From Streptomyces sp. NBC_00539 (GTDB taxonomy: Bacteria > Actinomycetota > Actinomycetes > Streptomycetales > Streptomycetaceae): a DNA stretch of 64,000 nucleotides. The notes under the pieces are model-generated. The model did no database searches. It had not been told where the DNA came from and saw only the letters and a program-made list of their open reading frames with translations. Positions within the stretch are counted from its first letter, which is position 1, and every line of letters begins with the position of its first letter. Location of the stretch: positions 124,001 through 188,000 of the forward strand of contig NZ_CP107811.1 in assembly GCF_036346105.1 (NCBI RefSeq). Reading direction: 5' to 3'. The translations under genes and the position numbers were made by a program. This document shows positions 1,800 to 7,803 of this stretch, piece after piece.

Positions 1800-2492
1800 T
1801 CAGACCGCGCTCCCGGACACCCGCACGACCCTGCGCATGACCGCGGGGGCGAGGGCGTAGCCGACGCCGAGCCAGACCAGGGCGTACAGCCAGCCGCCGA
1901 GGACGTCGCTGGGCCAGTGCACGCCGAGGTAGATCCGGCTGAGTCCGACGACGACGGCCCAGCAGGCCATGAGTGCGCAGCCGGTCCTGGCGAGGATGGG
2001 GCGGGTGCGCTGGAACAGGGCCCAGGCCAGTAGCCCGGCCATGAGCGCGGAAGTGCTGGTGTGACCGGAGGGGAAGGAGTAGCCGGAGGCCTGGGTGAGC
2101 CAGTCCACGGTGTCGGGGCGGGCCCGGTGGAGCAGGTGGAGCACGCCGTATCGGGCCGCCTGGGCGATGCCGAGGAAGAGCAGCGCGGCAGCTGCGGCCA
2201 GCAGCCGCCCGCGTGTGTCGCGGCCGACGAGGAGTCCGGCGGCGACAGCGCACAGGTAGGGGAAGGGCCCGGTCGCGGTCGCGGTGACGGTGCGCGCGAG
2301 CGTGACGACGGCGTCCGGCCGGTGGCGTGCGGACCAAAGGTGCATGCTCCGGTCCACCGGGTAGGGAACGCCGTGCCGGCTCGCGACGAGCGCGGCCAGC
2401 AGGACGAAGAGAGCGCCACACAGCGCCGCCACGCCCAGCGCCGCCCCGGTGCCGCGGCGGCCGCGGTCCGCCGGCGCGGCGTCCTGGTTCAT
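1800..2492 (-). CDS. PAP2-family phosphatase (second copy), membrane
   Basis: 230-aa multi-pass protein starting MNQDAAPADRG. It shows the PAP2 motifs PSGH (in SFPSGHTSTSAL) and SRIYLGVHWPSDV (SR-x5-H-x3-D). The first motif is altered: RARPD is present but the lysine expected seven residues before the Arg-Pro is replaced by a hydrophobic residue. PAP2 enzymes remove phosphate from lipid phosphates or pyrophosphates, including undecaprenyl pyrophosphate, at the outer membrane face. Its ATG overlaps the stop of the upstream PAP2 gene as ATGA, indicating translational coupling in the DedA-PAP2-PAP2 operon. The natural substrate cannot be read from sequence; the altered motif may change or weaken activity. 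Confidence 0.85.
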   Translation of the reverse strand: MNQDAAPADRGRRGTGAALGVAALCGALFVLLAALVASRHGVPYPVDRSMHLWSARHRPDAVVTLARTVTATATGPFPYLCAVAAGLLVGRDTRGRLLAAAAALLFLGIAQAARYGVLHLLHRARPDTVDWLTQASGYSFPSGHTSTSALMAGLLAWALFQRTRPILARTGCALMACWAVVVGLSRIYLGVHWPSDVLGGWLYALVWLGVGYALAPAVMRRVVRVSGSAV

Positions 2493-3094
2493 CTCGGGGC
2501 CACCAGTGGGCGCAGCCGAGTATTGCGCGCCCGCTCGACGAGTGGGGCGCCGCGCCGGGCGGTGCGGGTCAGGAGCCAGCCCAGAGCGGCCCCGACGACC
2601 AGGCCGAGGGCGACGTCGTGCGGGTAGTGGGCGCCGACCCAGACGCGGGAGAAGGCCATCAGGAGCGCCGCGGCGGCGGCGACGGCGCCGAGGCGGCGGT
2701 CGGTGAGCCAGATGGCGATCGCGGCGGCCGCGGCGATGGCGGCGTGGTTGCTCGGAAAGGACCAGTCGCCCAGAGGGGGGCACGCCTCCAGCGTGACGGT
2801 GTGCAGGGTCTGGCAGGGCCGCTGCTCTCGGATCACCGACTTGAGCAGGGTGTCGGCGGTGAAGGCCAGCACCACGGTGAGCGGCGCGGCCAACGCCATG
2901 GCGATCCGCCCCGCGTCTGTCGGCCGGGCTCGCCACCAGGCCGCCAGCATGAGCAGTGCGAAGAGCGCCAAGCCGTACGTCGACCACGCCGACATCAGAG
3001 AGTCCAGCCAGCCCGGCGCGCGGTGGGCGAGATCGGTGACGCGGGTGTAGAGGGGGCCGTCGACGGACGGGCCGTCCAGGGCGGTCAGGCTCAC
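2489..3094 (-). CDS. PAP2-family phosphatase (first copy), membrane
   Basis: 201-aa membrane protein with start GTG 3094, overlapping the DedA stop by four bases (GTGA). The three PAP2 motifs are visible: KSVIREQRP (K-x6-RP), FPSNHAAIAA (PSGH motif with Asn for Gly) and SRVWVGAHYPHDV. These form the acid phosphatase site with a catalytic His and a Lys/Arg phosphate clamp. By family it may dephosphorylate undecaprenyl pyrophosphate (BcrC-like) or another lipid phosphate. Its place in an operon with DedA and beside a BlaI/M56 pair supports a role in lipid-carrier recycling; this is inference. Confidence 0.88.
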   Translation of the reverse strand: MSLTALDGPSVDGPLYTRVTDLAHRAPGWLDSLMSAWSTYGLALFALLMLAAWWRARPTDAGRIAMALAAPLTVVLAFTADTLLKSVIREQRPCQTLHTVTLEACPPLGDWSFPSNHAAIAAAAAIAIWLTDRRLGAVAAAAALLMAFSRVWVGAHYPHDVALGLVVGAALGWLLTRTARRGAPLVERARNTRLRPLVAPR

Positions 3095-3759
3095 TGCGAG
3101 CCTCCGTTCGACGTCTTGCGGGTGCGCGCGCGGAGCATCTCCAGGGCCAGCGGGGTGAGGGAGACGAGCACCACGAGGGCCACGATGGGCAGTAGGTAGC
3201 GGTCCACATTCGGCACGGAGGAACCGAGCCCGTATCCGGCGAAGACGAGGAGGACGGTCCAGAGGAGGCCGCCGACGATCTGCCAGAGGGTGAAGAGGGG
3301 TGCGGGCACGTTCAGCGCGCCGGCCAGCGGGTTGAGCACGGTGCGCACGATGGGGACGAAGCGGGCCAGCACGATGGCCTTGGCGTGCCCGTAGCGCTCC
3401 AGCAGCTCCTCGGCGCGCTCGGCGCCCTCGTGGAGCTTGCGGCTGTGGCTGCGGGACAGCAGCGCCCGGCCGCCGCGCCGGCCGATCAGGTAGCCGGCCT
3501 GGGCGCCCAGCAGGGCTCCGGCGACCGCGGCGGCCAGCACTTGCGGGAGGGAGAGGTGCACGGGTCCGTGGTTGCCGGGCACGCACAGCAGTCCGGCGGT
3601 GAAGAGCAGCGAATCGCCCGGCAGGAAGAAGCCGACCAGCAGGCCCGTCTCGGCGAACATCACCGCCGCGATGCCGAGGGCGCCGAACGCCGAGAGCAGC
3701 GAGCCCGCGTCGAGGAGGTTCACGGCCTGCGGCGCTGCCGTCAGGGCTGATAGGGCCAT
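3091..3759 (-). CDS. DedA/SNARE-associated family membrane protein
   Basis: 222-aa DedA-type protein starting MALSALTAAPQAVNLLDAG. It has the family motifs ETGLLVGFFLPGDSLLF near residues 42-56, the GYLIGRRGG segment, and FVPIVRTVLNPLAG near 134-147 (F-x-P-x-x-R-T). DedA proteins include the undecaprenyl phosphate translocases UptA and others active in membrane homeostasis. It is the first gene of a tightly overlapping minus-strand operon with two PAP2 phosphatases. Its start lies 112 bp from a divergent BlaI-type repressor gene, with two BlaI-like operators in between that could control both directions. Confidence 0.9.
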   Translation of the reverse strand: MALSALTAAPQAVNLLDAGSLLSAFGALGIAAVMFAETGLLVGFFLPGDSLLFTAGLLCVPGNHGPVHLSLPQVLAAAVAGALLGAQAGYLIGRRGGRALLSRSHSRKLHEGAERAEELLERYGHAKAIVLARFVPIVRTVLNPLAGALNVPAPLFTLWQIVGGLLWTVLLVFAGYGLGSSVPNVDRYLLPIVALVVLVSLTPLALEMLRARTRKTSNGGSQ

Positions 3760-3810
3760 GATGTGCTGCTCCCATAATGTGAGTGGGCCAGGCCGGACCG
3801 GAACTCCGGC

Positions 3811-3847
3811 GTCTACAGTGAAGTAGACGGTCTACATTACTGTAGAC
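3811..3847. promoter_or_regulatory. Two tandem BlaI/MecI-type operators
   Basis: Two dyads lie side by side: GTCTACAGTGAAGTAGAC (3811-3828) and GTCTACATTACTGTAGAC (3830-3847). The second matches the BlaI operator core TACA-N-TGTA pattern almost exactly; the first is slightly degenerate. They fill the gap between the divergent DedA operon and the BlaI gene, so repression of both and autoregulation are likely. Confidence 0.82.
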
Positions 3848-3870
3848 GTAATTGTGTGGAGGGTCTTTCC

Positions 3871-4242
3871 ATGGGTGATACGAACGGGGAGCGGAGGCCG
3901 TCGGGCGAGCTGGAGGCGAGCGTGCTCGCCGCCCTGTGGGCCGCCGATGGTCCGCAGACCCCGGCTCAGGTGCAGCGGCTGCTGGGTTCCTCGCTCGCGC
4001 GGACGACCGTGACGACGATCCTGTCCCGCCTGTACGAGAAGGGGACGGTCACCCGTTCCCGTTCGGGCCGCGGGTTCGCGTACGTCCCGACCGAGGACGC
4101 GTCGGGCCTGACCGCCCGGCGGATGCACTCGGAACTGGAGAAGACCGAGGACCGGGGCGCCGTGCTGTCCCGGTTCGTCTCGCAGCTCAACGACGAGGAC
4201 GAGCGGCTCCTGCGGGCCCTCCTTGAAGGAGGCGCGACATGA
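3871..4242 (+). CDS. BlaI/MecI-family transcriptional repressor
   Basis: 123-aa winged-helix protein: ELEASVLAALW, TPAQVQRLLGSSLARTTVTTILSRLYEKGTVTRSRSGRGFAYVP is the canonical BlaI DNA-binding wing. The C-terminal helices (residues about 80-120) form the dimer region that a cognate M56 protease normally cleaves. The start at ATG 3871 is chosen because GGAGGG lies seven bases upstream; a GTG at 3856 would put the Shine-Dalgarno inside the gene. Its stop overlaps the M56 gene (ATGA). It should bind the two dyads just upstream. Confidence 0.92.
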   Translation: MGDTNGERRPSGELEASVLAALWAADGPQTPAQVQRLLGSSLARTTVTTILSRLYEKGTVTRSRSGRGFAYVPTEDASGLTARRMHSELEKTEDRGAVLSRFVSQLNDEDERLLRALLEGGAT

Positions 4243-5195
4243 TCTACATGGTGTGGCTGCCGCTGCTCGTCCCCTTCCTGGCCGGCCCGGCCGGCCGGCG
4301 GCTGGTCGCCTGCCTGCCCCCGGCCCAGGCGGCGTGGCTGTTGACGATCACCGCAGCGGGCCTTGCCCTCGGCAGCACCACCGCGCTTGCGCTGCTCGTC
4401 ATCCCCGGCGCCACCCGCCTGCACGCGGTGGCGACGCTGGGCAGGCTGCTCACCCCGCTCGCCACGGGCTCCCCCGACTCCGTCGTGGCCGTCGCCCTCG
4501 CAGCTTCGGGCCTGCTGGCGTGGTGCGCCTTCGTGCTGGTACGCGGGCTGTACCGGCGCCTGGTGCAGCTGCGCGAGGCGAGGCGGCTGGCCGCCCGGGC
4601 CGGCAGCGAGCTCGTCGTGCTAGCCGACGACTTTCCAGACGCCTACGCGCTGCCCGGCCGCCCGGGCCGAATCGTGGCGACCTCCGGCATGCTCCGGGCC
4701 CTGTCGCCCGCCGAGCGCGAGGCTCTGCTCGCCCACGAGCGTGCCCACCTCACGGGCCGGCACCACCGCTTCACCGCCGTGGTGGAGCTGGCCGCGCTGT
4801 GCCACCCCGCACTGCGGGCCCTGCGGGAACCGCTCGTATACGCCCTGGAGCGCAGCGCCGACGAGCACGCCGCCCACGCCGTCGGCGACCGGCGCCTCAC
4901 GGCGCAGGCCATCGGCAAGGCCGCCCTGGCCGTCCGCGCGGCCCGCGCCGCCTGTCCGGCCGCCGCGCGACGACGGCCCGGCATCGCGCTGGCCGCGACG
5001 GCGGGCCCCGTGCCCCGCCGGGTCGCGGCCCTGCTCGACCAGCACTCCGGGACCGCGCGCACTCGGCGCGACACCCGGATCGCCATCGCCGCCGCCCTGC
5101 TGGCTTGTCTGGCGCTGTCGGCGACATCGGCCGTGGAGGCCGCCGACGATCTGCACACAAGCATCGAAGTCGCGCAGGGCGAACTCCCTCGGTAG
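4239..5195 (+). CDS. M56-family membrane metalloprotease (BlaR/MecR-like, no sensor domain)
   Basis: 318-aa protein with hydrophobic segments near residues 4-20, 32-56 and 82-103, a cytoplasmic peptidase region, and a C-terminal hydrophobic segment near 285-302. The zinc site HERAH is at 166-170, with ERSAD at 204-208 supplying the probable third ligand. Family members cleave BlaI-type repressors. Unlike staphylococcal BlaR1 there is no C-terminal penicillin-binding domain; only about 15 residues follow the last membrane segment, so any signal must be sensed by the membrane part or a partner. It is translationally coupled to the repressor. Confidence 0.9.
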   Translation: MIYMVWLPLLVPFLAGPAGRRLVACLPPAQAAWLLTITAAGLALGSTTALALLVIPGATRLHAVATLGRLLTPLATGSPDSVVAVALAASGLLAWCAFVLVRGLYRRLVQLREARRLAARAGSELVVLADDFPDAYALPGRPGRIVATSGMLRALSPAEREALLAHERAHLTGRHHRFTAVVELAALCHPALRALREPLVYALERSADEHAAHAVGDRRLTAQAIGKAALAVRAARAACPAAARRRPGIALAATAGPVPRRVAALLDQHSGTARTRRDTRIAIAAALLACLALSATSAVEAADDLHTSIEVAQGELPR

Positions 5196-6849: not shown

Positions 6850-7332
6850 ATTCCGGCTTGCACCGCTGCCGACAGCCTCGCCGAGGCGGTGGAGGAGGCC
6901 TTCCGCCAGCACCCGGACGCAGAGGTGCTGCTGAGCTTCACCGGTCTTGGTGTCCAGCTCGCCGCCCGTGTTCTGTCCCAGGTTGGGGACGACCGCACGC
7001 ACTTCGCTGACGCCCGCGGTCTCAAGGCCTACGCCGGCTCCTCACCCGTCACCCGCGCCTCGGGCAAGAAGTCCGCCATCACCAGACGGTGGGTGACGAA
7101 CGACAGACGCAACCACGCCGGCTACCTATGGGCCTTCTCCGCGCTTCGCCACTCGCCAGGTGCCGGAGCCCACTACCGACGCCGACGCGAACAAGGCGAC
7201 TGGCACACCACCGTCGCCCTGCACACCACCATCGGCCGGGTCCGTATGCCGATGGAGATGAGCGCCATCGACCGCCTGCCACCACCCCGCACACTCACAG
7301 GAGAGGGCACCCCACAAGTGCCAAAAAGGTGA
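6850..7332 (+). mobile_element. IS110-family transposase remnant (C-terminal half)
   Basis: The frame opens after a TAG at 6847-6849 and reads LLSFTGLGVQLAARVLSQVGD, ARGLKAYAGSSPVTRASGKK, then AGYLWAFSALRHSPGA. This is the Transposase_20 (C-terminal, serine-containing) domain of IS110 elements. The N-terminal DEDD catalytic domain is absent, and past about 7200 the sequence departs from the family. I see no ends or target duplication. It is an inactive fragment. Confidence 0.8.
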
Positions 7333-7533: not shown

Positions 7534-7803
7534 ATGCGTGCTCATCTTCTCCGCATGGCGGCTGTCGTCGGTGCCGCCGCTGTCATGACCCTCGGCGGCG
7601 CCGCCGTGGCAAGCGCCGACGGGGGTGTCGGCAATGCGGGTATCGGTAACTCCGGCGTAGGCAATGCGGGTATCGGCAACTGGGGTGTGGGCAATGCCGG
7701 CGAGGTGAACGGGGGGCTGGGCAATGCCGGCATCGCCAACTCCGGGATCGGTAGTGCTGGAATCGGCAACGCCGGAGTCGGCAGCGCGGGTATCGGCAAC
7801 TAA
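7534..7803 (+). CDS. Small secreted protein of about 12 GxGNx pentapeptide repeats
   Basis: 89 aa. An AGGAGG at 7519-7524 precedes ATG 7534 (an in-frame GTG at 7531 is an alternative). The signal peptide is MRAHLLRMAAVVGAAAVMTL followed by GGAAVASA. The whole mature protein is a five-residue repeat: GVGNA GIGNS GVGNA GIGNW, GVGNA GEVNG GLGNA GIANS, GIGSA GIGNA GVGSA GIGN. This period and composition resemble the NxGxGNxG repeats of mycobacterial PPE-MPTR proteins, without a PPE domain. It lies inside decayed DNA but has an intact start, signal and stop. Function unknown; a surface or matrix role is a guess. Confidence 0.72.
   Translation: MRAHLLRMAAVVGAAAVMTLGGAAVASADGGVGNAGIGNSGVGNAGIGNWGVGNAGEVNGGLGNAGIANSGIGSAGIGNAGVGSAGIGN

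Follow-up and report, generated by a model that had tools for sequence, protein, structure and literature searches.

We analysed a 64,000-nucleotide stretch of the genome of Streptomyces sp. NBC_00539 (contig NZ_CP107811.1; hereafter the window) and conclude that the genes at positions 1800-5195 are probably the local copy of an actinomycete module controlling the recycling of the lipid carrier of wall synthesis, undecaprenyl (or another polyprenyl) phosphate. At this locus the genes for a BlaI-type repressor and a sensorless BlaR1-type membrane protease (M56) are divergent from an operon of overlapping genes, DedA-PAP2-PAP2, with two BlaI-type dyads between them, an arrangement that the first-pass annotation of this DNA had described and that was borne out in all its parts. 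The direct basis for the proposal comprises gene content, the architecture of the dyad sequences (boxes), conservation, an exchange of PAP2 for UppP, intact catalytic residues and partner-specific protease clades. These comparisons give good support to carrier recycling as one output of the locus, its genes adjoining the BlaI/M56 pair and being probably controlled by it. Taken together, the genes and boxes suggest that Streptomyces and some of its soil-dwelling relatives regulate wall building through a feedback circuit. Coordinates without a prefix are window positions, C1 marks own-genome positions and L numbers denote the loci compared.

The strongest evidence for this proposal is an enzyme swap: under the same box and the same protease family, UppP, an undecaprenyl-pyrophosphate phosphatase unrelated to PAP2, stands in for PAP2 or accompanies it. 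In the NBC_00539 genome itself, a second BlaI-M56 pair adjoins UppP with a perfect box between them (C1:406767). Outside the window's family, UppP and DedA genes divergent from BlaI-M56 were found at L247 and L250 and also, boxed, at L231, where DedA lies in two frames (a gene or assembly frameshift); two other loci outside the family have DedA with PAP2-a (L238) or DedA (L241). A Catenulispora bin (L331) has a separate box or tandem dyads for each of UppP, DedA and a PAP2-a gene represented by its start, and in S. sulfonofaciens (L274) DedA, PAP2-b and UppP surround one BlaI-M56 pair, UppP having its own box. DedA and PAP2-a are also present in Amycolatopsis alkalitolerans (L315), where no box of the searched form was found. 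All four UppP proteins scored passed the NCBIfam equivalog cut-offs for undecaprenyl-diphosphate phosphatase (356/308, 468/394, 454/394 and 375/308 bits, score/cut-off). It is hard to account, other than by carrier recycling, for two unrelated families that share a reaction and take turns next to a flippase controlled by a single switch, and the swap makes recycling of the undecaprenyl carrier a much more probable output than general metabolism of phospholipids. The features of the window locus are as follows.

1800..2492, minus strand: PAP2-b, PAP2-superfamily membrane phosphatase, 230 residues (PF01569, E 2e-20)
2489..3094, minus strand: PAP2-a, PAP2-superfamily membrane phosphatase, 201 residues, GTG start (PF01569, E 6e-21)
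3091..3759, minus strand: DedA (VTT domain), 222 residues (PF09335, E 1e-21)
3811..3829, no strand: BlaI-type dyad 1, GTCTACAGTGAAGTAGACG, partner dyad at the conserved 19 bp
3830..3848, no strand: BlaI-type dyad 2, GTCTACATTACTGTAGACG, a perfect box and the 19-bp partner of dyad 1
3871..4242, plus strand: BlaI/MecI-family repressor, 123 residues (PF03965, E 1e-22, residues 12-119); alternative in-frame GTG at 3856
4239..5195, plus strand: BlaR1/M56-type membrane zinc protease, 318 residues, with H166-E167-x-x-H170 and E204 and without a penicillin-sensor domain

The Penicillinase_R domain spans nearly the whole repressor, which identifies it as a BlaI/MecI member, and its nearest solved relative is 2g9w (E 5e-11), which we take to be M. 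tuberculosis BlaI. Of the 63 BlaI genes at L047-L106, 52 have a box (mismatches at no more than two of its 12 positions) in the 400 bp upstream, and in 34 of those 52 a second dyad (at most 4/12 mismatches) stands exactly 19 bp away, any other offset from 10 to 45 bp occurring at most twice; these positions were scanned from tblastn match positions, not annotated starts. Of 101 family genomes, 71 contain exact boxes, as do 37 of 61 from the window's genus and all 41 from a second genus; the reversed pattern is present in 2, 2 and 1 of these genomes, respectively. These counts and the 19-bp spacing led us to reject chance dyads, and the conserved predicted operator suggests that BlaI would bind at 3811-3848. 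A promoter and terminator scan of 3650-3950 found none, a result that is uninformative for Streptomyces.

The gene set recurs well beyond the window. P0005-like proteases (E up to 1e-10, several sister classes included) were found in 182 of 200 family genomes. The family loci comprised the 20 best protease matches after the window's own (a contig-end match, G021, was skipped) and 35 hand-picked lower matches, with five own-genome regions added; these loci were chosen mostly by similarity to the window protease, and the fractions are not population estimates. Among the 58 BlaI-M56 pairs in the 55 family loci, 39 have DedA within 4 kb, 40 have PAP2 and 36 have both, and in the first 20 loci DedA is near the pair in 19. 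Of 425 relatives found, the 80 best named loci were kept; among these, DedA occurs within 5 kb at 31 loci, PAP2-a at 32, PAP2-b at 18, UppP at 6 and any of these at 38; all 31 DedA-bearing loci, which include Kitasatospora, Peterkaempfera, Amycolatopsis and the Catenulispora bin, also have a PAP2 or UppP gene. Outside the family, where 65 of 296 class genomes had a match and 20 loci were hand-picked from the top matches, a recycling gene is near 6 of 19 pairs (at L232 by a weak PAP2 match only). We estimate that recycling genes would lie this close to a pair by chance in about 1% of cases, since DedA genes number 7 and PAP2 genes 12 in the 7.5 Mb of the NBC_00539 genome. The synteny search across actinobacteria that the first-pass annotation had called for, with lack of conservation among the outcomes that would sink its proposal, was thus run, and the set recurs. 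At L068, L092 and L102, DedA and PAP2-a flank BlaI-M56 on opposite sides, each with a box, an arrangement that speaks for selection to co-regulate them and not just for linkage. These loci, together with DedA and PAP2-a genes at boxes that have no BlaI, led us to reject a single ancestral operon fixed by linkage as a full account.

An association was also apparent when the box, instead of the regulator, was the starting point. In a set of 60 box regions, taken from among the matches listed and excluding most sites in the fetched DedA loci and two others, 26 have a recycling gene (UppP 10, DedA 7, PAP2 9) that begins no more than 450 bp from the box and is read away from it, compared with 7 of 854 control positions; repeating the count against a wider reference set again gave 26 of 60, versus 4 of 837. 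For the window's genus, the figures are 7 of 34 boxes and 8 of 463 controls. The samples from this genus and the second genus (40 regions) were hand-picked among the matches listed, with several multi-box clusters excluded. Rare targets include LytR-CpsA-Psr (1/60 and 1/34) and FtsW/RodA (1/60) genes. Inspection of the sampled box-linked genes by eye and with blastp (Pfam being run on 20 proteins only) revealed no recognisable beta-lactamase or penicillin-binding protein.

The protease of the window has the HExxH zinc-protease membrane body of BlaR1/MecR1, and Pfam found no transpeptidase or beta-lactamase-like domain in its 318 residues, compared with 531-556 residues in full-length BlaR1 entries. 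Length and Pfam agree, therefore, with the earlier observation that the M56 protein has no penicillin sensor, and because this C-terminal penicillin-binding domain is absent we do not class the protein as BlaR1. A fold comparison was needed because a profile search of solved chains gave two M48-type proteases and one unrelated-looking entry; the AlphaFold2 model (mean predicted local distance difference test score 87.3) overlays BlaR1 residues 3-290.

A protease tree was built from 148 of the 157 loci by a quick method that leaves many forks open; short or missing protease matches were dropped and stop signs within matched stretches deleted, and rows without any of the genes sought carry the label "none". 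The window protease falls in a clade of 87 rows, 69 of them recycling-linked and 18 none. A clade of eight rows is entirely recycling-linked, holds most of the UppP-linked proteases and spans four families by its labels. The ter-linked proteases form a separate clade of 33 rows (17 ter, 16 none, no recycling) with a Shimodaira-Hasegawa-like approximate likelihood ratio test (SH-aLRT) value of 100, the other two clades having 92 and 88. Seven of the 84 recycling rows lie outside both recycling clades, some on long branches. The recycling label changes 16 times on the tree compared with 48.0 times in shuffles, none of 500 of which was as low. The ter and recycling switches have the box in common, but they look specialised by protease clade. 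Members of this second BlaI/M56 subfamily, with the same box before ter genes, occur in Streptomyces and relatives (L078-L086 and L386-L425); one example has TerD by Pfam, and TerB-like, Spo0M-like and TatA-like neighbours were noted by eye.

Residues E37, D49, R133 and R139 of the window DedA match those reported for carrier flippases of COG0586, as do their spacings of 12 and 6, and their conservation over 49 rows is 1.00, 0.98, 1.00 and 1.00, respectively. An acidic pair and two arginines on re-entrant helices are described as essential for undecaprenyl-phosphate flipping by COG0586 proteins in the accessible part of PMC10127716. PAP2-a has its complete catalytic set (K85, R92-P93, P114-S-N-H117, S149-R150, H156 and D160), 0.92-1.00 conserved in 51 rows. 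PAP2 enzymes have a three-part catalytic motif, the first part being KX6RP. The first-pass annotation had noticed that the second PAP2 lacks the first-motif lysine, and this was upheld: in all 15 PAP2-b rows the residue is Leu or Met. The PSGH and SR-x5-H-x3-D motifs are intact, and R114, four residues before the missing lysine, is invariant in all 15. PAP2-b is therefore a variant and probably not a dead enzyme, and it offers a testable variant active site. The nearest solved relative of PAP2-b is YodM/PgpB (5jki, E 5.6e-13). It is an accessory part of the module, being present at a minority of loci (18 of the 80 above).

The mechanism that we propose would begin with BlaI dimers on the two 19-bp-spaced dyads repressing both divergent operons, their own included. 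By analogy with BlaR1-BlaI, an envelope signal would activate the sensorless membrane protease, BlaI would be cut or released, and both operons would be freed. An outer-face pyrophosphate phosphatase (PAP2-a here, UppP in the sister modules) would then be made, and the DedA flippase would return the monophosphate to the inner face. The signal is most likely envelope stress or carrier shortage rather than a beta-lactam, because the protease has no sensor. The part of the first-pass interpretation that placed a carrier-recycling set beside BlaI boxes therefore stands, as the set is conserved, but the response to wall antibiotics that it proposed is so far conjectural: the sensor is absent, no beta-lactamase was recognised at the boxes sampled and data from S. 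coelicolor are mixed. PMC3123327 reports that SCO7047, a bacA homologue of S. coelicolor, showed no response to any of bacitracin, vancomycin and moenomycin, while bcrC homologues responded to bacitracin and at least one other. A further-reaching version, which we advance tentatively and regard as rather doubtful, is that the sensorless protease reads the carrier, or a direct consequence of its shortage, in the membrane and is the actinomycete counterpart of the Bacillus SigM carrier-homeostasis pathway, with partner-distinguished sister switches running recycling (PAP2 and UppP being interchangeable) and ter genes through a shared box code.

Several results weigh against control of carrier recycling. 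The silence of SCO7047 is one. At the protein level, neither PAP2 protein nor DedA reaches the cut-off of a curated equivalog model: with the curated UptA models, the window DedA scores 54.7/250 bits (NF052604) and 32.8/300 (NF052605), and so by model is a DedA protein but not an UptA equivalog; the best NCBIfam model of PAP2-a, undecaprenyl-diphosphatase SepP, gives 68 bits against a cut-off of 250, and PAP2-b gives 45/250 with the same model. The close DedA form is patchy: a search of 296 genomes of the phylum yielded DedA at E 1e-50 or closer in only four, of which three belong to the window's genus, and other genomes from the genus gave no such match. No recycling gene is near 15 of the 58 family pairs, 42 of the 80 named loci or 13 of the 19 pairs outside the family, and none is at 34 of the 60 boxes, 27 of the 34 in the genus or any of the six in the second genus. 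The regulon is broader than carrier recycling and the box is not exclusive to it: TerD genes stand at boxes in 7/60, 9/34 and 3/6 regions, genes for DUF347 membrane proteins in 8/60 and 1/34, and others are a secreted phosphodiesterase (3/60), FTR1 (2) and polysaccharide deacetylase (2). In the NBC_00539 genome, boxes with two mismatches occur at seven places besides the window and the UppP locus. Six of these are at no recycling gene by eye and look like noise; the seventh, C1:3086068, stands upstream of a second DedA gene and counts in favour of the proposal. A third perfect box at C1:6944918-6944933 (L089) lies inside the end of a frame-broken polyprenyl-synthase-like open reading frame (by eye) and faces no intact candidate gene, there being no recycling gene, no strong module-gene match and no DNA relative among the loci. 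Finally, that BlaI binds, that the protease cuts it, what the enzymes do and what the signal is are all inferred from comparative evidence.

The breadth of the regulon would fit a general regulon for envelope or cytoplasmic stress, in which BlaI/M56 answers a broad stress and DedA and PAP2 form just one arm alongside iron uptake, membrane proteins and ter genes; the carrier pool would then be neither controlled nor sensed. This is the course suggested by the TerD and DUF347 boxes and by the neighbours seen by eye in the ter subfamily, but the ter-linked proteases form their own fully supported clade without a recycling-linked member, and we consider this alternative unlikely. Turnover of phospholipids, with the two PAP2 proteins acting as phosphatidylglycerophosphate or phosphatidate phosphatases and DedA as a phospholipid scramblase, would agree with the breadth of the PAP2 superfamily and with YodM/PgpB being nearest to PAP2-b. 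It is made quite improbable by UppP, which takes the place of PAP2 and passes carrier-specific family cut-offs, and by the four carrier-flippase residues of DedA, some of which are missing from a putative phospholipid subfamily according to the accessible text of PMC10127716.

A decayed accessory duplicate without a present role might be expected on a chromosome arm, and the locus is about 126 kb from the contig end, beside a transposase-like fragment (by eye), in a genome that has further copies of its genes. The second DedA, at C1:3086176, shares 79% identity with the window DedA and has the two-mismatch box C1:3086068 upstream; there is also another PAP2-a/PAP2-b pair, its members sharing 76% and 68% identity with those of the window. 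Decay is nevertheless very improbable: all five reading frames are intact, as is each of the two dyads, and no catalytic residue is lost except the PAP2-b lysine, which the whole PAP2-b group lacks. A classical beta-lactam switch controlling resistance is the least credible of these alternatives and was rejected: it is in keeping with the BlaI family and the BlaR1-like protease body, but the sensor domain is absent and no beta-lactamase or penicillin-binding protein was recognised among the examined targets.

Control of carrier recycling by a BlaI/M56 pair has partial parallels in known systems. In BlaR1-BlaI and MecR1-MecI of S. aureus and B. licheniformis, a BlaI-family repressor is likewise encoded with a membrane zinc protease. 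These systems have dyad operators, and their targets are beta-lactamase or PBP2a. Unlike BlaR1 and MecR1, the window protease has no penicillin-binding sensor, and the predicted targets are carrier-recycling genes. TagT and TagU of Bacillus are LytR-CpsA-Psr proteins. In B. subtilis, SigM (YhdLK) is active when carrier is short and controls bcrC, uptA, tagT, tagU and rodA, as stated in the part of PMC11081497 accessible to us. The likeness lies in one regulator for an undecaprenyl-pyrophosphatase and a flippase, here UppP or PAP2 and DedA, rarely with LytR-CpsA-Psr and FtsW/RodA; SigM works through sigma and anti-sigma factors, whereas the window module would use a repressor and a protease. 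Boxes before FtsW/RodA and LytR-CpsA-Psr genes (L193:2553-3977 and L194:4063-5574 by Pfam, and L412 by blastp at 35%) concern functions in wall assembly, which are reminiscent of the SigM regulon in Bacillus. M. tuberculosis BlaI (Rv1846c) is paired with its neighbour Rv1845c. Its named targets in the accessible part of PMC8265638 are blaC, sigC and atpH. It resembles the window repressor through the nearest solved relative 2g9w, but those targets differ from DedA, PAP2 and UppP. DedA-PAP2 fusion proteins combine flippase and phosphatase in one chain (PMC9876793 and PMC10127716, in the parts available), whereas the window has separate genes in one operon beside a repressor and protease; those parts mention no such regulation of the fusions.

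In the literature searched, outside of which most subscription papers fall, no work was found that names BlaI together with DedA or with TerD; three papers name BlaI and uppP, none of them on such a module by its title, and no title among those listed described one. How cells keep up the supply of lipid carrier that wall synthesis needs is under active study, and in Bacillus a regulatory pathway for it, SigM, has been worked out. If our reading is correct, actinomycetes would have a second, unrelated control logic joining pyrophosphatase and flippase, the promoter of the DedA operon could serve as a reporter of carrier stress, and there would be a candidate for what sensorless BlaR1-like proteases sense.

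Other features were noted around the copies and the window locus. A third own-genome BlaI/M56 pair (L090, C1:1855848-1862851) lies beside copper-handling-like and CsoR-like genes by eye; the second PAP2-a/PAP2-b pair is about 4.3 kb from it, and the only box before that PAP2-a has four mismatches and was left out of the counts. In the window, an open reading frame at 6889-7332 resembles by eye the C-terminus of a truncated IS110-type transposase, suggesting mobile-element activity beside the module. The reading frame at 7534-7803 would encode a small, exported-looking protein with a signal-peptide-like start followed by GVGNAGIGNSG-type repeats to its end.

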